The position numbers and the translations under genes are program-made. Below, in pieces: positions 13,320-20,647 of a DNA stretch of 23,729 nucleotides (positions are counted from its first letter, which is position 1; every line of letters starts with the position of its first letter). The DNA is taken from positions 1 to 23,729 of the IMG/VR virus record IMGVR_UViG_3300037137_002295. One strand, given 5' to 3'. This DNA comes from a virus. The notes under the pieces were generated by a model. That model was not told the origin of the DNA, did no database searches, and saw nothing but the letters and a program-made list of their open reading frames with translations.

Positions 13320-13562
13320 ATGATCCCCCGCCGTGCGTCCCCGTTTTTCCAGCCCAAGATCCGCGCCGTCGCCGCTCGGCGAGCGGACAAGGTGTTCGAG
13401 AGCGCCATCGACCAGGGTCTCTCGGTAGCGGATGCCCGGGACATCATGGCTGAGACGTACGCCAAGGCCATTGTCGAGCTTAACGAGGCACATCCGGAGG
13501 TAACTCCTGCCAACCCAGGACCGCTGATCGTCGAGGTGATGAAGAAGGACGCGAGGTCGTGA
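13320..13562 (+). CDS. Small hypothetical helical protein, 80 residues
   Basis: The ATG at 13320 is preceded by AGGAAAGGAA, a good ribosome binding site. The product is mainly helical (RRADKVFESAIDQGLSVADA, then IMAETYAKAIVELNEAHPEV), soluble and unrecognised. The stop TGA overlaps the GTG start of the Mom-like gene (GTGA), so the two are probably expressed as one unit and may act together. Confidence 0.6.
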   Translation: MIPRRASPFFQPKIRAVAARRADKVFESAIDQGLSVADARDIMAETYAKAIVELNEAHPEVTPANPGPLIVEVMKKDARS

Positions 13563-14098
13563 CTCTCGTCGAGCCGGCGTCCGTGGCCGACCTGCTCAAG
13601 GCCAAGCACTACCTCGGTCCAACCCGGCGGGGGTTCGCCCTACAAGACATGGCTGGGGTCCTGGTCTTCGCGGCACCGACGTCCCGCCGGCTGCCGAAGG
13701 AATGGCTGGAGTTGACCCGTTGGTGCATCACCGCGGGGAAAAAGAACACCGGGTCGCAGCAGTGGGCGCGGGCGGCAAGGTGGCTGAAGCAGAACCGGCA
13801 GGAGACGACCGTCGTTTCGTACTCCGACCCGGCGGTCGGCCACACGGGCGCGCTCTACCGTGCCTGCAACTGGGAGTGGGCTCCTACGTGGCTGCGTCTC
13901 CGACCTCCGCCTTCTGGGCAGGGGTGCTGGAAAGGCACCAAGCAGGAGTCCGTCAAGGACCGCTGGGTATTCTCTCTCCGCCCGGACGACCGTCGAGGCG
14001 TTCTGCTCCAAGTCATGGACAAGAGCATTGTGAAGAGGATGCCGTGGGCAAGTTACCCCGGAAACTACCAGCGATGGAAGAAGGAACAGGCAGCATGA
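13559..14098 (+). CDS. Mom-like / GNAT-fold phage DNA-modification candidate
   Basis: This 179-residue protein begins with a GTG that overlaps the upstream stop. Conserved-looking blocks are KHYLGPTRRGFA (residues 15-26), GVLVFAAPTSRRLP, WLELTRWCI, KKNTGSQQWARAARWLK, VVSYSDPAVGHTGALYRACN and KDRWVF. The pattern of SYSDP-x-x-GH-x-G-x-x-Y-x-A-x-NW resembles the core of Mu Mom-type acyltransferase-fold enzymes, which alter adenine in phage DNA to evade restriction. I read this as membership of a Mom-like phage family, not as proof of Mom chemistry. The ATG of the DUF5664 gene overlaps its end by 4 bases, and a deoxyribosyltransferase-like gene lies 6 kb upstream, which fits a nucleotide or DNA-modification theme. 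Confidence 0.55.
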   Translation: MTLVEPASVADLLKAKHYLGPTRRGFALQDMAGVLVFAAPTSRRLPKEWLELTRWCITAGKKNTGSQQWARAARWLKQNRQETTVVSYSDPAVGHTGALYRACNWEWAPTWLRLRPPPSGQGCWKGTKQESVKDRWVFSLRPDDRRGVLLQVMDKSIVKRMPWASYPGNYQRWKKEQAA

Positions 14099-14607: not shown

Positions 14608-14792
14608 AGACCTACACCATCGTCTCCGCCATGGCCATCATTTCCCTCATGATCGCCATCTTCATCCGTGGAATCGAGCTGGACACCATTACCGCCCGCA
14701 TCTGGACGCTGGAGAAGCAGGTCAAGGCGCTGGAACAGCGCGAGAATGACTCCGTGCACGTATTCCGGTCCTTGTTCGAGAAGCACGAGTAA
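14604..14792 (+). CDS. Small membrane-anchored coiled-coil protein, 62 residues
   Basis: The ATG at 14604 overlaps the DUF5664 stop (ATGA). An N-terminal membrane segment (TIVSAMAIISLMIAIFI, residues 4-20) is followed by a heptad-rich helix (ITARIWTLEKQVKALEQREN). The predicted topology is a short N-terminus and the helix in either cytoplasm or periplasm. The TAA overlaps the ATG of the DNA polymerase gene (TAATG), so it is coupled to polymerase expression. It may tether a replication or lysis partner to the membrane; the partner is unknown. The same architecture recurs at 19123 and 20641. Confidence 0.65.
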   Translation: MKTYTIVSAMAIISLMIAIFIRGIELDTITARIWTLEKQVKALEQRENDSVHVFRSLFEKHE

Positions 14793-16687
14793 TGACCTAT
14801 CTCCAGCAACCCTTCTGCCCCCCGGCCGCTCCTTGGCGCCCGCCGGCCATGTCGACACTTCCCTCATGGAGCGGTGCCAAACGGGTAGCGATCGACATCG
14901 AGACGAATGACAAGGACCTGCTCACTCAAGGCCCCGGCGTCCGCCGCGGGGCGTACATCATTGGCGTCTCATTCGCAATCGAGGGAGGTCCCGCCCACTA
15001 CCTTCCCTTCCGCCATGAGGGCGGGGACAACCTGCCGGCCGAGGCGGTCCTTCAATACTTGAAGGATCAGGCGGCGGCGTTCAAGGGAGAGCTGGTAGGA
15101 GCCAACATTAATTACGACCTCGACTTCCTTGCCGAGGTCGGCATCAACTTCACTCCTCGATTCTTCCGCGACGTGCAGATCGCAGAGCCCCTCCTCGACG
15201 AGCTGCAGTTCTCGTATTCCCTGGAGAACATCGCCACTCGTCGGGGGATGAATGCGAAGGACGAACAACTCCTTCGGATCGCGGCCCGTTGCCACGGGCT
15301 GGACCCGAAGGCAGAGATGTGGAAGCTGCCGGCGCGGTACATCGGGGCGTACGCCGAGCAGGATGCCCGGCTGCCGCTGTTGATCCTCCGGGAGCAGGAG
15401 AAGGGACTCAGGGAGCAGAAACTCGGGTCGATATGGGACCTGGAGAGCCGCGTCCTGCCGATCCTCCTCAAGATGAGGAGGAAAGGGGTGCGGATAAACC
15501 TGAAAAAGTTAGACGAGGCAGAGGCGTGGCTGACGAAGGATGAGACCGAGTCTCTGGCGAAGGTGAAGGTGTTGTCCGGCGTCCAACTCGGCTTTGAGGA
15601 CGTCTGGGACGCCGCGGCACTGGAAAAAGTCCTCGGAGTCGCGGCCCCACGGACCCCGAAAACCGGCAAGCCCTCGGTGAAGAAGGAGTTCCTTGCCGGC
15701 CTACAGGGAGATCTTCCTCGTGCATTGGAGCGAGCCCGTAAATTCGACAAGGCCCGGCGTGACTTCATCCGGACGATCCGGGAGCACGCGGTCGGGGATA
15801 GAATTCACACTACTTTCAACCAGCTAAAGATGACCCGGGATGACGGGGACGACGCCGGCACTATCACCGGACGGCTGTCGTCAGCGTCACCCAATCTCCA
15901 GCAGATCCAGGCACGCGACGAGGAGCTGGGTCCGCTGTGCCGAGGCATCTTCATCCCGGAGGACGGTGAGATATGGGCCTCCATGGACTTCAGTAGTCAA
16001 GAACCAAGGGCCACCATCCACTTTGCTGTCAAATCTGGATGTCGAGGCGGCCTGGAAATGGCCGAGCGGTTCCGGAAGGATCCACGGACGGATCTCCATC
16101 AAGCTACCGCGGATCTTTGTGGCATCAAGCGCAAGGAGGCCAAGACGATATTCCTCGGACTCGCCTACTCTATGGGTCCGGCGAAGCTGTGCGAGCGCCT
16201 CGGTCTCCCAATCGCCGAGGGATATTCGAAACGACTACGGCGCAAGATCCCAGTGGCCGGACCCGAGGGACAGGTGATCCTGGACAAGTTTCACGCCATG
16301 GTGCCGTTCCTGAAAGAGTTGTCGGAGAAGGTTCAGGCGGCCGGTGCCCGGCGGGGATACATCCGAACCCTCCTGGGTCGCCGTTGCCGATTTCCGATCG
16401 ACTCCGAGAAGTCCGACGAGAGACACACCGAGTTCCAGCACCTGTCGAAGGCACTAAATAAATTAGTTCAATCCAGCAGCGCCGACCAGACGAAGGCCGC
16501 CATGCTGGCGGTGGACCAGGCTGGATTCTCGATCGGCCTCCAGGTACACGACGAATTGTGTTTGTCGGTACCGTCCAAGGCCGAAGCGGAACAGGTGGCA
16601 CGTATCATGGAGAACGCTGTCCCCCTCGAAGTCCCGACCGTCGTTGACGTCGAGGTGGGTCCGTCGTGGGGCGAAGCCAAGTCCTGA
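14792..16687 (+). CDS. Family A DNA polymerase with 3'-5' exonuclease, Leu at position 762 equivalent
   Basis: This 631-residue phage replicative polymerase has a proofreading domain with ExoI DIET (D35, E37), ExoII GANINYDLDF (D109/D111) and ExoIII YAEQD (Y187, D191). The polymerase domain has TGRLSSASPNLQQIQARD near 359-376, motif A MDFSSQEPR (D399, E404, R406), motif B R447-K451-L455-Y459 and motif C VHDE (H586, D587). L455 (codon CTC at 16154) aligns with E. coli Phe762 and T7 Tyr526, a residue that affects nucleotide selection and speed. No 5' nuclease domain is present, as in T7-like enzymes. The start codon overlaps the upstream stop. Two helicases and ssDNA-binding candidates lie upstream; no primase is seen in the window. 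A GACNN array begins at the stop codon. Confidence 0.95.
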   Translation: MTYLQQPFCPPAAPWRPPAMSTLPSWSGAKRVAIDIETNDKDLLTQGPGVRRGAYIIGVSFAIEGGPAHYLPFRHEGGDNLPAEAVLQYLKDQAAAFKGELVGANINYDLDFLAEVGINFTPRFFRDVQIAEPLLDELQFSYSLENIATRRGMNAKDEQLLRIAARCHGLDPKAEMWKLPARYIGAYAEQDARLPLLILREQEKGLREQKLGSIWDLESRVLPILLKMRRKGVRINLKKLDEAEAWLTKDETESLAKVKVLSGVQLGFEDVWDAAALEKVLGVAAPRTPKTGKPSVKKEFLAGLQGDLPRALERARKFDKARRDFIRTIREHAVGDRIHTTFNQLKMTRDDGDDAGTITGRLSSASPNLQQIQARDEELGPLCRGIFIPEDGEIWASMDFSSQEPRATIHFAVKSGCRGGLEMAERFRKDPRTDLHQATADLCGIKRKEAKTIFLGLAYSMGPAKLCERLGLPIAEGYSKRLRRKIPVAGPEGQVILDKFHAMVPFLKELSEKVQAAGARRGYIRTLLGRRCRFPIDSEKSDERHTEFQHLSKALNKLVQSSSADQTKAAMLAVDQAGFSIGLQVHDELCLSVPSKAEAEQVARIMENAVPLEVPTVVDVEVGPSWGEAKS

Positions 16688-16750
16688 CATGCTCAGACGG
16701 GACTCGACAGGACGCGACGACACCAGACACGACAAGACGTAACGAGACGA
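16686..16750. repeat. GACNN pentamer array 1 (13 units)
   Basis: Thirteen consecutive 5-bp units in strict register run from 16686: gacat, gctca, gacgg, gactc, gacag, gacgc, gacga, cacca, gacac, gacaa, gacgt, aacga, gacga. Ten start with GAC and two of the other three differ at one base. The last two bases of each unit vary almost freely. The array starts within the polymerase stop codon and ends 29 bases before the next ATG. Two units span about one helical turn. Confidence 0.8.
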
Positions 16751-16779
16751 TTCGTTTTAAAAGAAAGGAAGGAGTCCAC

Positions 16780-16944
16780 ATGCCCAAACCGTCCGGGAAC
16801 AAGAGTCGATACGTCCTCGGCAAAGGGGATCTGCGCCGCCCTGCGGCGATCCCCGACGAGGAGTTCGAGGAGCGGTGGAACTTCGCATTTGGCATATCGG
16901 AGAAGGTGAAAAAGGCGAAGGCGGATCCCGAGGTGAAGAAGTGA
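16780..16944 (+). CDS. Small hypothetical basic/acidic protein, 54 residues
   Basis: The ATG at 16780 has a strong ribosome binding site, AAGGAAGGAG (16765-16774), directly after array 1 and an AT-rich stretch (TTCGTTTTAAAAG). The product begins MPKPSGNKSRYVLGKGDLRR and ends in a charged helix (SEKVKKAKADPEVKK). No family is recognised. Its TGA overlaps the GTG of the next gene, so it heads a run of translationally coupled small genes. Confidence 0.6.
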   Translation: MPKPSGNKSRYVLGKGDLRRPAAIPDEEFEERWNFAFGISEKVKKAKADPEVKK

Positions 16945-17246
16945 GCGGCGGCTACTACGACTACGTCAGTTTCAAGATCGACGCGGTCGCCGATAGCATT
17001 CGGGACATGGGCGCTGAGCACGCGGCACCCCGCGCCGTCCGCCGGGCATTCAAGGAGCACCTGAAGAAGGTCGCCGCCGCCTGCCACGCGATCGAGTGGA
17101 ACGACTCGGGAGACGGGGACCGGGACGAGGAGCGCCTCGTCCGGGAGGTTCTCTCCCCCGGCGCCGTCCTCACCGAGGCGATCGATGCCGCCCAAAAAGC
17201 CGCCGCGGCGCTGGCGAGGGAACTGAAGAAAGTGGAGAAGAAGTGA
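16941..17246 (+). CDS. Hypothetical helical protein, 101 residues
   Basis: The GTG at 16941 overlaps the upstream stop (GTGA). The product is soluble and helical, with YYDYVSFKIDAVADSI at the N-terminus and a central GDGDRDEERLV. An Ala/Lys-rich C-terminal helix (AIDAAQKAAAALARELKKVE) could form a coiled coil. The stop again overlaps the next GTG. An in-frame ATG at 16875 lies inside the preceding gene and lacks an SD. No family is recognised. Confidence 0.6.
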   Translation: MSGGYYDYVSFKIDAVADSIRDMGAEHAAPRAVRRAFKEHLKKVAAACHAIEWNDSGDGDRDEERLVREVLSPGAVLTEAIDAAQKAAAALARELKKVEKK

Positions 17247-17446
17247 AAGCCACCCTCGAATTCAACATCCCCGAGGAGAACTCCGAATTCCTCCACGCGA
17301 CGAACGCCGGGCGGTACCTGAGCGCCCTCTGCGAGTTCGACGAGCGCCTGCGTGGGCTCAGGAAGCACGGCGAGGAGAAGACCCTCGCCGAGGACCTCAT
17401 CCGTGCCTGGTTCGACGCGATCGAGGACGTGGATCTCTATGAATAA
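17243..17446 (+). CDS. Small conserved phage protein, 67 residues, function unknown
   Basis: The GTG at 17243 overlaps the upstream stop. The sequence (MKATLEFNIPEENSEFLHAT, then AGRYLSALCEFDERLRGLRK) matches a common small phage family with an N-terminal LEFxLPE strand and a YxxALxxFDxxLR helix. Its function is not established. The C-terminus is acidic (AIEDVDLYE). It overlaps the HNH endonuclease gene by 8 bases, which suggests the endonuclease inserted at the end of this gene. Confidence 0.65.
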   Translation: MKATLEFNIPEENSEFLHATNAGRYLSALCEFDERLRGLRKHGEEKTLAEDLIRAWFDAIEDVDLYE

Positions 17447-17924
17447 GACACTGGAGGAGCGGTTCTGGGAGAAGGTCGACAAGACCCCTGGACACGGTCC
17501 GAACGGAGATTGCTGGGTCTGGACCGGGGCTCGAAATCCGAAAGGGTACGGAAATTTCTCATCCAACAAGCGGTTTTTCAAGGCACATCGGCATGCCTGG
17601 AGTTTGTTCAATGGGGAAATTCCTAAAAATATTTTCGTCTGTCATCGTTGTGACAATCCCTCCTGCGTGAGACCAGAACATCTCTTTTTAGGAAGCAACC
17701 AGGATAACCTGCACGACGCATCGCTTAAAGGGAGAATGTCCTCGTGGCAACGCGCCCAGGGAGAGGCTAACGGAAATTCCCGGATAGACCGACGGGCTGT
17801 TCGCGCAATTCGAGAAGCCTTCGAAAACGCATGTTTTTCAGTCAAGCAATTAGCTGACGGATTCAATATAGGTCGCAGCACGGTACTGCACATATTAAAC
17901 AGGGAGACCTGGAGGCATGTATGA
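17439..17924 (+). CDS. HNH homing-type endonuclease with C-terminal HTH
   Basis: This 161-residue protein carries a complete HNH nuclease: CWVWTG near 25-30, KAHRHAW (H50, H52), then CHRCDNPSCVRPEHLFLGSN with zinc-type cysteines and H81/N87, and DNLHD at 89-93. A GEANGNSRID linker leads to a resolvase-like helix-turn-helix (SVKQLADGFNIGRSTVLHIL). The domain order is that of free-standing phage HNH homing endonucleases, which cut at a specific site and spread their own gene. The stretch 17550-17720 is clearly less GC-rich than its neighbours, a sign of recent arrival. The ATG at 17439 lies in the end of the 17243 gene, and the stop overlaps the next ATG. Confidence 0.9.
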   Translation: MNKTLEERFWEKVDKTPGHGPNGDCWVWTGARNPKGYGNFSSNKRFFKAHRHAWSLFNGEIPKNIFVCHRCDNPSCVRPEHLFLGSNQDNLHDASLKGRMSSWQRAQGEANGNSRIDRRAVRAIREAFENACFSVKQLADGFNIGRSTVLHILNRETWRHV

Positions 17925-18355
17925 GTTCAGAAAAGGAATTTAGAAAGCGGGTCATCAAGGCCCTCAAGCCTCTCCATGCAATCGCCGTGGAAAATGGCTG
18001 CGGCCTCGGGTGTCCTGATATCAACTACGTGAACGGGTGGATCGAATGCAAGAGCATGGACGCCTGGCCCGCAAGGGCGGATACGCCTCTGCAAATCCCT
18101 CATTACAGCCAAGACCAGCGTGTCTTTGCGACCATCCGCACCCGAGCCGGCGGAGAAGTATATTTCTTCCTGAAGGTCGGGAATGACTTCTTGTTGTTCG
18201 ACGGCCTCATGGCCGCTGACCTGGTGGGGAAGCCCGGCGGCACCCAGCAAATGCTCTGGGACAACTGCCTGGTGGGCTGGGAAGGTCATCTCGAAGACAG
18301 CGAGTTGCTCGCTGTCATGCGGGGAGACGAGGTCCATCTGGAGCACGGCAAATGA
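17921..18355 (+). CDS. PD-(D/E)XK nuclease, VRR-NUC-like
   Basis: This 144-residue protein has the restriction-endonuclease-fold core: GCPD (P32, D33), then WIECK (E42-x-K44), then HYSQDQR (Q66), with the beta strands YFFLKVGNDFLLFDG following. This is the arrangement of VRR-NUC and phage Holliday-junction-resolvase-like enzymes that cut branched or flapped DNA. GGAGG at 17911-17915 is a good SD for the ATG at 17921. It overlaps genes on both sides (ATGA). Lying one gene block after the polymerase, it is a candidate for resolving replication or recombination intermediates. The substrate cannot be told from sequence. Confidence 0.75.
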   Translation: MSSEKEFRKRVIKALKPLHAIAVENGCGLGCPDINYVNGWIECKSMDAWPARADTPLQIPHYSQDQRVFATIRTRAGGEVYFFLKVGNDFLLFDGLMAADLVGKPGGTQQMLWDNCLVGWEGHLEDSELLAVMRGDEVHLEHGK

Positions 18356-18609
18356 AGAAGATCATTCAACTCGCTGATGGAGGACCCCAGATCACGGCCG
18401 AGGTCACGAAGGCCGGGATCTTCGCCATCCACAAGCCGCTTGGAGTCGCCAAGGGTTACGTCATGACACACATTCCTTCAGGAATGTGTGTCATGCTTTT
18501 CGACCGCAAGAAAGAAGCCACCGACTTCCGGAAAGAGATCGAGAGCCTGCCTTTCGACCAGATCCGGTGTAGGGTATTCAACCTACTCCAGCCTCAAGTA
18601 AGCGTCTAA
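18352..18609 (+). CDS. Hypothetical small protein containing a palindrome-encoded segment
   Basis: This 85-residue protein starts at ATG 18352 overlapping the nuclease stop (ATGA). It shows a beta-rich N-terminal half (MKKIIQLADGGPQITAEVTK) and a helical C-terminal part (DRKKEATDFRKEIESLPFDQ). Residues 38-48 (MTHIPSGMCVM) are encoded by a perfect 16-bp inverted repeat. I recognise a general pattern of phage proteins with a THxPSGxxV strand, but no function. It ends the block that began at 16780; the structured leader of the next gene follows. Confidence 0.6.
   Translation: MKKIIQLADGGPQITAEVTKAGIFAIHKPLGVAKGYVMTHIPSGMCVMLFDRKKEATDFRKEIESLPFDQIRCRVFNLLQPQVSV
18462..18495. repeat. Perfect 16-bp inverted repeat inside a coding region, terminator-like
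   Basis: CATGACACACATTCCT (18462-18477) and AGGAATGTGTGTCATG (18480-18495) are exact reverse complements with a 2-base centre. The transcript would form a 15-bp stem with a UUCA loop, followed by CUUUU. It could act as an intragenic attenuator, a processing site or a binding site for a dimeric protein. Confidence 0.65.
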
Positions 18610-18636
18610 TAAGGCGACAATTGTTGAACAGAATGC

Positions 18637-18691
18637 GCTCCGGCTCTGTCCCTGTCCGTGATTAATAAGGACTTAGAGACTGGCCCGGAGC
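18637..18691 (+). promoter_or_regulatory. Leader hairpin that would bury the SD of the 18697 gene
   Basis: GCTCCGG (18637-18643) pairs with CCGGAGC (18685-18691); CTCT (18644-18647) with AGAG (18675-18678); GTCC (18648-18651) with GGAC (18669-18672). The ribosome binding site GGAG (18687-18690), 6 bases before ATG 18697, is inside the closing stem. This looks like an RNA switch, thermosensor or protein-controlled leader. Confidence 0.45.
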
Positions 18692-18696
18692 TTGCT

Positions 18697-19038
18697 ATGT
18701 TGGATATTATGTTGAAAACCCGCACGAACCTGATATTGAAAATCATGTGGTGCCGGTCCAAGGATTGGCGCCGAAATTATGAGTTTCAAGACAAGGACGG
18801 GAACCGGTTCTTCACACGGCGTCGTCTTGATTCGCCTCTACATGGACAGGTCGGCGACATGGTAGCCGTGAGGGCAACTATTCATGGAACACGATTAACA
18901 TATCTTCGGGAACAAGTCCCAGACCAGACTACACTTGACTGGACCGAACCAGCCTTGACTTGCCGAGATAGGACTGGACCAGATATGACAAGACCTGCTT
19001 CGTTGATGGGGGCAAAAAATTTACCCGACACGACTTGA
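18697..19038 (+). CDS. Hypothetical OB-like small protein whose C-terminus is encoded by a GACNN array
   Basis: This 113-residue protein starts at ATG 18697 after GGAG with ideal spacing; an in-frame GTG at 18658 falls inside the leader hairpin and was rejected. Residues 10-75 look like a small beta-barrel (NLILKIMWCRSKDWRRNYEF, QDKDGNRFFTRRRLDS, GDMVAVRATIHGTRLTYLRE), possibly OB-fold-like and so a nucleic-acid-binding candidate. From residue 76 on, the protein (DQTTLDWTEPALTCRDRTGP and onward) is encoded by pentamer array 2, so this tail is probably a by-product of the array and not a functional domain. No family is recognised. Confidence 0.5.
   Translation: MLDIMLKTRTNLILKIMWCRSKDWRRNYEFQDKDGNRFFTRRRLDSPLHGQVGDMVAVRATIHGTRLTYLREQVPDQTTLDWTEPALTCRDRTGPDMTRPASLMGAKNLPDTT
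18922..18996. repeat. GACNN pentamer array 2 (15 units)
   Basis: Fifteen 5-bp units in strict register: gacca, gacta, cactt, gactg, gaccg, aacca, gcctt, gactt, gccga, gatag, gactg, gacca, gatat, gacaa, gacct. Nine begin GAC and the other six differ by one base in those three positions. The array overlaps the 3' part of the 18697 gene. Confidence 0.8.
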
Positions 19039-19046
19039 CGCGACTT
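19027..19046. repeat. Short GACNN array 2b (4 units), in phase with array 2
   Basis: Units gacac, gactt, gacgc, gactt run from 19027 and lie in the same 5-bp phase as array 2 (105 bases between the first units). They end 5 bases before copy C of the 22-nt promoter-like motif, so the array sits where upstream promoter contacts would be. Confidence 0.65.
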
Positions 19047-19051
19047 TTTAC

Positions 19052-19073
19052 TCATGACCCCGTGGTACAGTAG
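19052..19073 (+). promoter_or_regulatory. Copy C of the 22-nt conserved motif, probable promoter
   Basis: TCATGA, CCCC, then GTGGTACAGTAG. It matches copies A and B at all 16 invariant positions despite lying 13.5 kb away. The putative -10 is TACAGT (19066-19071). The gene with the bL12-like domain starts 50 bases downstream. The motif's own ATG (19054) opens the same frame but has no SD. Confidence 0.6.
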
Positions 19074-19122
19074 TCTCAATCACCCCTCAACCGCGGCCAC
19101 GCGCCGCAGAAGGACCCCTCAC

Positions 19123-19806
19123 ATGCTCGTCTTCGACGTCCTATTCGTAATCGCCTGTTTCGTATTGCTCGTCATGTCCGTCCACATCCTCTCCGACCGA
19201 GCGGAGCGGTGCCGCTCGTTAGCACTCGACCGAGCGGCGCAGGCCAAGAACCTTGGGGAGGAGCTTCAGATCTGTCAGGACATCGCCAACAGCGTCCCGG
19301 GCTGGCAGACCCGGGCGGACCTCTACTCCGAAGCCGCTCGCGCCGTGCGTGCGCTGCGGAACCAGTTCGAGTCGATCACCGTCGCCGATCCGGAGGAGAT
19401 CCGCGCCATGCAGGATCAGCTCTCTAAGGTGACGGAGGAGCGGGACGAGGCGCGGGCCACGATCGCCGGCCTGGAGGCGCAGGTTGAGCAACTTTCGAAG
19501 TCCTGCGATGGCCTCGCCGAGCAACTCAACGCCTCCCGCAAGGTCGCCGACGACCTGCGCGTGGCGGCGGAGAAGGGACGTGCCCCTCTCTACGACGTCG
19601 TCCTCCGCAGTCGCAAGGAGGGATCCGTGATTCCCCTCATCAAGGAGGTGAGGTCCTACTTCAGTCTGGGCCTGAAGGAGGCCAAGGATCTGGTCGACAA
19701 CATGCCCTCGTTCCTGGGACAAGGTGTGACGGGGATCACCGCCCAATCCATCAAGTGTCGCTTCGAGGCGGCCGGCGGAATCGTCACGGTAAGGAAGGTG
19801 AAGTGA
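19123..19806 (+). CDS. Membrane-anchored coiled-coil protein with bL12 C-terminal-like domain
   Basis: This 227-residue protein has three parts. Residues 4-23 are a membrane anchor (DVLFVIACFVLLVMSVHIL). Residues 85-150 are charged coiled coil. Residues 156-227 read like the C-terminal domain of ribosomal protein bL12: LYDVVLRSRKEGSVIPLIKE, then VRSYFSLGLKEAKDLVD, and an ending like the bL12 last strand (EAAGGIVTVRKVK). LGLKEAKDLV is identical to the E. coli bL12 core, and the Lys/Arg positions of the factor-binding face (IKxVR, KEAK) are kept. That domain recruits translational GTPases to ribosomes. AGAAGG (19108-19113) supports the ATG at 19123. A phage could use this to bind EF-Tu/EF-G or ribosomes at the membrane; this is inference. 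It is preceded by motif C. Confidence 0.75.
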   Translation: MLVFDVLFVIACFVLLVMSVHILSDRAERCRSLALDRAAQAKNLGEELQICQDIANSVPGWQTRADLYSEAARAVRALRNQFESITVADPEEIRAMQDQLSKVTEERDEARATIAGLEAQVEQLSKSCDGLAEQLNASRKVADDLRVAAEKGRAPLYDVVLRSRKEGSVIPLIKEVRSYFSLGLKEAKDLVDNMPSFLGQGVTGITAQSIKCRFEAAGGIVTVRKVK

Positions 19807-19808
19807 TC

Positions 19809-20087
19809 ATGGCCCGCGAGAAGGTCCTCATCATACACGCCGGACCAGAGACATATATCCGTCGGTATTGGCAGGATGTACTCGACGCCGAAGAGATCCC
19901 GCTCATTTCCTACTTCTTCGACGATATCGAGACGAACGTCCGACTCATGACAATGTGCGATTCTGTCCGCATTTGCACAGTGGCCTGTGTGATTGAACCC
20001 CAAGATATCGAACTTCTCAGGCGAATTGCCCGAGGACTTAGCAAGCCGATCGAGGAAGTTCTCTATACTCAGGAGGACTTCCTGTGA
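19809..20087 (+). CDS. Hypothetical protein, 92 residues
   Basis: The ATG at 19809 starts 2 bases after the bL12-like gene stop; GGAAGGTGA upstream can serve as SD. An in-frame GTG at 19803 is an alternative. The product alternates strands and helices (KVLIIHAGPETYIRRYWQDV, then FFDDIETNVRLMTMCDSVRI, then LLRRIARGLSKPIEEVLYT). It looks like a small alpha/beta fold. No catalytic motif or family is recognised. The stop overlaps the next GTG (GTGA). Confidence 0.6.
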   Translation: MAREKVLIIHAGPETYIRRYWQDVLDAEEIPLISYFFDDIETNVRLMTMCDSVRICTVACVIEPQDIELLRRIARGLSKPIEEVLYTQEDFL

Positions 20088-20299
20088 GATCTCCGGCTGA
20101 GCAACACCGAATCGCCCGTGAGATCGCCCAGGCGTGGGAGCACCAGGTGCGAGGACTGGACCTCGACGAAGACCTCGGTACCGTCCTGGCGACAGCCGTT
20201 GGTCTCATGGTGGGCCGAATGACGCTCGATCCTCTGGGCACGTCCCAGATCATGACCGCGGCGTTCCAGAAGGGATTGGGGGAAAGACAGTTACAGTGA
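20084..20299 (+). CDS. Hypothetical helical protein, 71 residues
   Basis: The GTG at 20084 overlaps the upstream stop, and AGGAGG (20070-20075) gives a good SD. The product is helical and acidic (EQHRIAREIAQAWEHQVRGL, then LGTVLATAVGLMVGRMTLDP), with one moderately hydrophobic helix that is too polar for a clear membrane segment. No family is recognised. It is the last gene before array 3. Confidence 0.6.
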   Translation: MRSPAEQHRIAREIAQAWEHQVRGLDLDEDLGTVLATAVGLMVGRMTLDPLGTSQIMTAAFQKGLGERQLQ

Positions 20300-20306
20300 T
20301 TTTCAG

Positions 20307-20376
20307 GTCACGACTGAACCGGACACGTTTTGACAGGATAAGACATAACACGGCAAGTCCCGACGAGACAAGACAT
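20307..20376. repeat. GACNN pentamer array 3 (14 units) running into a start codon
   Basis: Units in strict 5-bp register: gtcac, gactg, aaccg, gacac, gtttt, gacag, gataa, gacat, aacac, ggcaa, gtccc, gacga, gacaa, gacat. Seven begin GAC and most others differ at one base. The last unit supplies the A and T of the ATG of the 20375 gene, which has no recognisable SD. Confidence 0.8.
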
Positions 20377-20647
20377 GTTTTCTGATGTGCTAAAAGGTGC
20401 GTTCGAGTTAGGGGGCGCATTATTCATCTCAGTCAATATCCATGCGGTGCTTCGGGATCGCGCCGTCAAGGGCGTTTCATGGCTTCCTTCCGCGTTCTTC
20501 ATCCTGTCCGGCGGATATAACTGCTACTTCCTTCCTTTATTTGGATGTTGGTTGGCATTTACCGGAAATCTCCTCGCCGTATTGGCAAACCTCGTCTATC
20601 TTTTTCTCCTGCTCCGCTACTCGCGGAAGAAAGACCCCTCATGCTAA
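20375..20647 (+). CDS. Three-helix membrane protein, weakly SemiSWEET/PQ-loop-like
   Basis: This 90-residue protein has three hydrophobic helices: about 8-26 (GAFELGGALFISVNIHAVL), 33-52 (GVSWLPSAFFILSGGYNCYF) and 57-80 (CWLAFTGNLLAVLANLVYLF). A basic tail follows (RYSRKKDPSC). The phrase KGVSWLP before the second helix recalls the loop of PQ-loop/SemiSWEET-type small membrane proteins, and similar proteins occur in phages without known function. The ATG at 20375 is formed by the last array unit, and no SD is visible, so initiation may be leaderless, A-rich-driven or array-controlled. It overlaps the next gene by 7 bases. Confidence 0.65.
   Translation: MFSDVLKGAFELGGALFISVNIHAVLRDRAVKGVSWLPSAFFILSGGYNCYFLPLFGCWLAFTGNLLAVLANLVYLFLLLRYSRKKDPSC

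Follow-up and report, generated by a model that had tools for sequence, protein, structure and literature searches.

What are the three arrays of degenerate GACNN pentamers on the plus strand of a 23,729-base IMG/VR virus record (60% G+C; this whole stretch is referred to below as the window), and what holds them in a strict 5-base register? An earlier note, which read the letters without knowledge of their source, had delimited 13 units at 16686-16750 (array 1), 15 at 18922-18996 (array 2) and 14 at 20307-20376 (array 3), and could put no name to an element of this form. That last statement has been overtaken by the description of VIPR guide RNAs, or vrRNAs (PMC13142463, an April 2026 preprint). 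It is very likely, in our assessment, that the three arrays are guide RNA genes of this type, built on a GAC/NN unit.

The arrays were confirmed at these coordinates and stand far above chance. Lag-5 identity is 0.49-0.57 within them, against 0.26 over the whole window, and arrays 1, 2 and 3 score 20.6, 22.8 and 15.4, compared with 8.4 for the best GAC array obtained when the whole window was dinucleotide-shuffled 300 times. No array of any other triplet was found elsewhere in the window, and four extra GACNN units at 19027-19046 (plus strand) share the register of array 2. The description of a held GAC with free NN was borne out; the NN are too diverse for slippage repeats, which the note had likewise discounted and which we reject as the origin of the arrays, and its reading that the phase is held by selection proved right. 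Its account of array 1 was correct for the in-phase units but not for the start, which lies 15 bases further upstream: the degenerate units GCGAA, GCCAA and GTCCT (16671-16685) belong to the 3'-terminal part of the polymerase open reading frame, and their NN continue the message decoded below. The note had also proposed relatives as a check on periodicity at these gene borders. We found no GAC arrays in the fetched polymerase relatives (L004-L083; 38-47% identity), so the arrays are not conserved at these positions.

The main text of the VIPR preprint describes Vipr as a Cas7-like RAMP, ancestral to Cas7, that binds vrRNAs (PMC13142463). There, a vrRNA consists of alternating GGY/NN pentamers "or a related consensus" with hypervariable NN, and is recognised by 9-16 tandem pentamers, a conserved structured 3' tail and expression as a Vipr-bound RNA of about 100 nt; its decoding on DNA skips a single base for each unit, in most cases a codon wobble position, and the examples presented, phage SUSP1 and a P. 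fulva prophage, target satellites or prophage regulators. The arrays in the window share much of this form. They are phage-borne, intergenic tandem pentamers with a fixed triplet, hypervariable NN and strict register, and their unit counts (13+3, 15 and 14) fall within the published range. They differ in their unit, which is GAC rather than the GGY stressed in the main text of the preprint, where a related consensus is allowed without an example, and in that the array-1 guide begins inside the polymerase reading frame. Two further points weigh against the VIPR reading: we saw no clear conserved 3' tail common to the three arrays, and Rfam returned no element, hammerhead included, at its gathering threshold. 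The crRNA of class 1 CRISPR, with its Cas7 backbone, is comparable in being coated by a RAMP filament with periodically unpaired bases (PMC13142463). The arrays themselves are not CRISPR arrays, since they contain only pentamers with free NN, without long repeats or spacers, and the guide is noncontiguous.

Decoding followed the published one-base-skip rule, which was set beforehand and not fitted to the window arrays. In scans of viral contigs with one base skipped per unit, eight units of array 1 matched more than 120 contigs; the two scans for array 2 gave 14 and 47, and those for array 3 gave 22 and 12. The array-1 matches place the guide on the IQGSSADQTK stretch of family-A DNA polymerase genes, and the base that is skipped falls on the codon wobble position. 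The full guide, comprising 13 units at 16671..16735 on the plus strand (NN = AA AA CT AT CA GG TC AG GC GA CA AC AA), decodes to NKLIQGSSADQTK and agrees at 26/26 bases, wobble-aligned, with this stretch of family-A DNA polymerase. The final three units, GACGT AACGA GACGA (16736..16750, plus strand), do not match the target, and the two or three units that close the arrays of other GAC genomes hardly vary; on these two grounds we infer that units 16736-16750 probably serve as a non-targeting 3' handle. Those genomes also show repeated flanks.

Among 120 contigs fetched from the scan matches, the array-1 guide agreed at 26/26 in 32 and at 24/26 or better in 111. Because these contigs were selected by the pattern itself, we took as the fair test 80 polymerase homologs that had been fetched by homology before any decoding. 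In this set the guide reached 26/26 once and 24/26 four times at a skip of one, whereas skips of 0, 2 and 3 gave at most 19/26, and 300 shuffles of unit order, tested on 40 of the 80, never exceeded 21/26. More broadly, when 155 arrays were compared with 8.6 Mb on both strands, 20/20 one-skip matches were obtained for array 1 and one low-complexity array only. Array 1 decodes as a published vrRNA does, with its skip at wobble positions and at a skip of one only, to a site in other phages; this target, a polymerase, differs from the satellites and prophage regulators reported previously.

Both the coincidence reading and the readings in which the arrays are protein-binding sites must be weighed against this result. 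That the polymerase match is accidental, the arrays being degenerate repeats of an ordinary kind, is the least probable of the explanations considered, at the edge of what we would entertain: the lack of targets found for arrays 2 and 3 speaks for it, but the decoding rule was published beforehand and no shuffled guide exceeded 21/26 on the 40 homologs. Strict 5-base spacing and the presence of several arrays per genome would suit a double-stranded DNA array that offers a cooperative binding protein two units in each helical turn, at an origin, a partition site or a repressor target. The note had proposed such a cooperative site, or an origin or partition site, and neither is supported. The NN of array 1 carry information as a gapped guide; a DNA site of this kind, which we judge very unlikely, leaves unexplained both a 26/26 polymerase match at a one-base skip only and the association with a Cas7-like protein described below. 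The note's further suggestion of an RNA signal fared better in part, in that an RNA role stands while a local transcription signal is not supported.

The phage's own polymerase gene encodes 631 amino acids (14792..16687, plus strand, from the open reading frame list; Pfam DNA_pol_A, 6.9e-50), and its last codons overlap the first array-1 guide units. The site equivalent to the target (16457..16495, plus strand) codes for NKLVQSSSADQTK and agrees with the guide at 20/26; four codons differ, two of them by synonymous Leu and Ser switches. The site thus looks as an immune allele would, but the protein is equally deviant elsewhere: it departs at 54 of 241 constrained columns and at 2 of 13 in the footprint (Fisher p = 0.83), and the nearest relatives' polymerase sites likewise match the guide at only 20-22/26. 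Selection for self-avoidance at this site is not supported on these grounds. No close named relative of the window was found; its polymerase shares about 53% identity with Mesyanzhinovviridae polymerases, among them that of Pseudomonas phage Lucjan, and because the Lucjan genome measures 59 kb the window probably covers well below half of a genome. Elsewhere in the window, positions 13559-14098 encode a Mom-like DNA modification protein (phrog_1384, 1.2e-17), and 19123-19806 a coiled-coil protein with a C-terminal ribosomal L7/L12 domain (PF00542, 5.7e-15).

Arrays 2 and 3 yielded less. The guide of array 2 probably spans 18922-18981, its final three units being handle-like. Two exact viral scans for each array produced no match that spanned the whole guide and read in frame, and this, too, counts against the VIPR reading. 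Close at hand, the array-2 guide finds an antisense, wobble-aligned match of 17/24 at 18748-18782, within the short open reading frame immediately upstream (18658..18921, plus strand; p = 0.002 by unit-order shuffling). A gene for a small predicted membrane protein at the end of array 3 (20375..20647, plus strand) holds a weak antisense, wobble-aligned match to the guide of that array (14/22 at 20417; p = 0.046). Neither of these small neighbour genes has a named relative among phage records.

Is the GAC unit found beyond this phage, and in what company? When viral contigs were searched for six GACs spaced in a 5-base register, more than 120 stretches were returned, many of them simple slippage repeats; about 30 loci combined near-perfect GAC with free NN, at 37% to 70% G+C and often with several arrays per contig, the longest such run counting 34 perfect units (L120). 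Consecutive arrays with a small phase shift occur in L138, L179, L191, L107 and L114, and overlap between their guides is possible, as in the staggered arrays that figure in the VIPR preprint (PMC13142463). An all-against-all comparison of neighbouring proteins revealed one recurrent family of about 190-300 amino acids, phrog_4652, whose function is not annotated. Of 29 records, made up of 28 with NN-diverse arrays and the array-free relative L004, 23 carry this family; among 29 slippage-array records drawn from the same scan as a control, 2 do. The SUSP1 protein at 28477-29061, which is flanked by GGY arrays and has the right size and place for Vipr, belongs to the same family (E = 1.4e-96), and its neighbour, a member of phrog_5926, is likely Vap1. 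Arrays similar to those in the window thus adjoin the family of the SUSP1 Vipr, a protein that has been studied by experiment. By its AlphaFold model (pLDDT 90.6), the GAC-type Vipr is predicted to fold like Cas7, its best PDB matches being Csm3 and type VII Cas7 (E = 1e-6).

In a quick tree, GAC arrays accompany several Vipr clades, and GGY arrays mainly SUSP1-like Viprs. A scan of bacterial genomes added a few loci, with NN-diverse arrays beside Vipr in one contig each of the FCB group, Geobacteraceae, Gemmatales and Blastocatellia; actinobacterial contigs such as L446 (Pseudonocardia) carry long, low-diversity GACNN-like slippage repeats with Vipr not nearby. The record GU169904.1 ("Staphylococcus phage SA1") encodes, at 91679-92263, a Vipr that shares 98.5% identity with the coliphage SUSP1 protein, and may for that reason be a composite.

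These neighbours also bear on a different RNA-based explanation. TRAP, a ring-shaped protein, recognises G/UAG triplets at a spacing of 2-3 nt, and the spacer bases carry no message. The arrays likewise present triplets separated by two free bases, and they lie on the coding strand near start codons, as would a leader RNA that a TRAP-like ring protein wraps to control how the next gene downstream is translated. The triplet here, however, is GAC; the NN of array 1 are informative; GACNN arrays elsewhere reach about 45 units and are placed after as well as before genes; and the protein that recurs beside them is Cas7-like, not TRAP-like. We consider such a leader highly improbable, marginally more so than a DNA-binding array.

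The window itself contains no Vipr that phrog_4652 could detect, and a custom profile for divergent Viprs, run over all six frames, had as its best hit an antisense open reading frame at E = 0.018; a divergent Vipr hidden in the window was therefore rejected. The two named relatives, of about 59 kb each, are also without a Vipr by our searches. This absence, from the window and from both relatives, sets the case apart from the published systems and speaks against the VIPR reading, although absence from a 23.7 kb fragment does not imply absence from the genome. Five records of 33-93 kb carry NN-diverse arrays and no detectable phrog_4652 (L094, L122, L128, L134 and L153), which again weighs against the VIPR reading; these arrays are possibly orphan guides, or their Vipr may have diverged.

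The arrays in the window could themselves be orphan or decaying vrRNAs whose Vipr has been lost and whose GAC is eroding, so that they are now non-functional or are served by the Vipr of a co-infecting phage or prophage. This is a sub-case of the VIPR reading as regards origin, and a rival to it only for present function. The fragment without a Vipr, the many units one base off GAC and the five comparable records would all fit; yet the array-1 guide is still perfect at 26/26, imperfect GAC units occur as well in Vipr-bearing records such as L114 and L124, and the window is a fragment, set against relatives of about 59 kb. We regard orphan or decaying guides as a real but minority prospect, with perhaps one chance in four.

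Under the VIPR reading, the arrays would be transcribed along with phage genes, and copies of a Cas7-like Vipr, encoded outside the fragment, would line each RNA with one subunit per pentamer. GAC would form the protein scaffold, while each NN would pair with two bases of the DNA target, after which one target base would be skipped. Array 1 would be aimed at the conserved NKLIQGSSADQTK stretch in the family-A polymerase genes of competing phages, with the skips on codon wobble positions, and binding would silence the rival's polymerase gene; arrays 2 and 3 would act alike on targets of their own.

The position of array 1, a guide beside a homolog of its target, raises a further idea, which we hold only tentatively: that in some phages a VIPR guide adjoins, or even overlaps, the phage's own allele of the gene that it attacks in rivals. 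The guide would then be passed on with a mismatched, "immune" allele, as an RNA-guided counterpart of marker exclusion by homing endonucleases. Free-standing homing endonucleases are gene-linked elements that often adjoin polymerase genes. Here the interval that separates arrays 1 and 2 contains an HNH endonuclease gene (17439-17924; PF13392, 7e-16), at a distance of 0.7 kb from array 1. The likeness lies in a gene-linked element that puts a rival's version of the neighbouring gene at a disadvantage; the difference is that array 1 would act by RNA-guided binding, and that the linkage is strong for array 1 only. Array 1 and the polymerase form the clear case. Array 2 and its upstream open reading frame offer a suggestive second one, as do two arrays of one other phage, on contig 3300037070_005035 (L113/L124); wobble-aligned in both instances, one guide matches an HTH-like gene at 18/26 (p = 5e-5) and the other a gene resembling an integrase at 19/26 (p = 3.5e-4). 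For the integrase guide, 21 matches were obtained in viral contigs, which is at chance level, and no integrase target was recognised among them. Across 138 arrays, matches to the upstream neighbour reached p<=0.01 in 2, about what chance gives, and neighbour targeting as a general rule is not supported. We treat the linkage as a lead and not as a result.

VIPR is a known kind of system, to which this case adds a GAC triplet, a polymerase target and an overlap with a gene. Since the guide was spotted without knowledge of VIPR, it provides independent confirmation, from sequence alone, of a claim only months old: read by the published rule, array 1 fits an essential gene of other phages without a mismatch, its skips at wobble positions. 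The picture of VIPR is thereby widened to include GAC units, replication-gene targets and guides embedded in the end of an open reading frame, and the case provides a convenient means to test the working of Viprs that read GAC.
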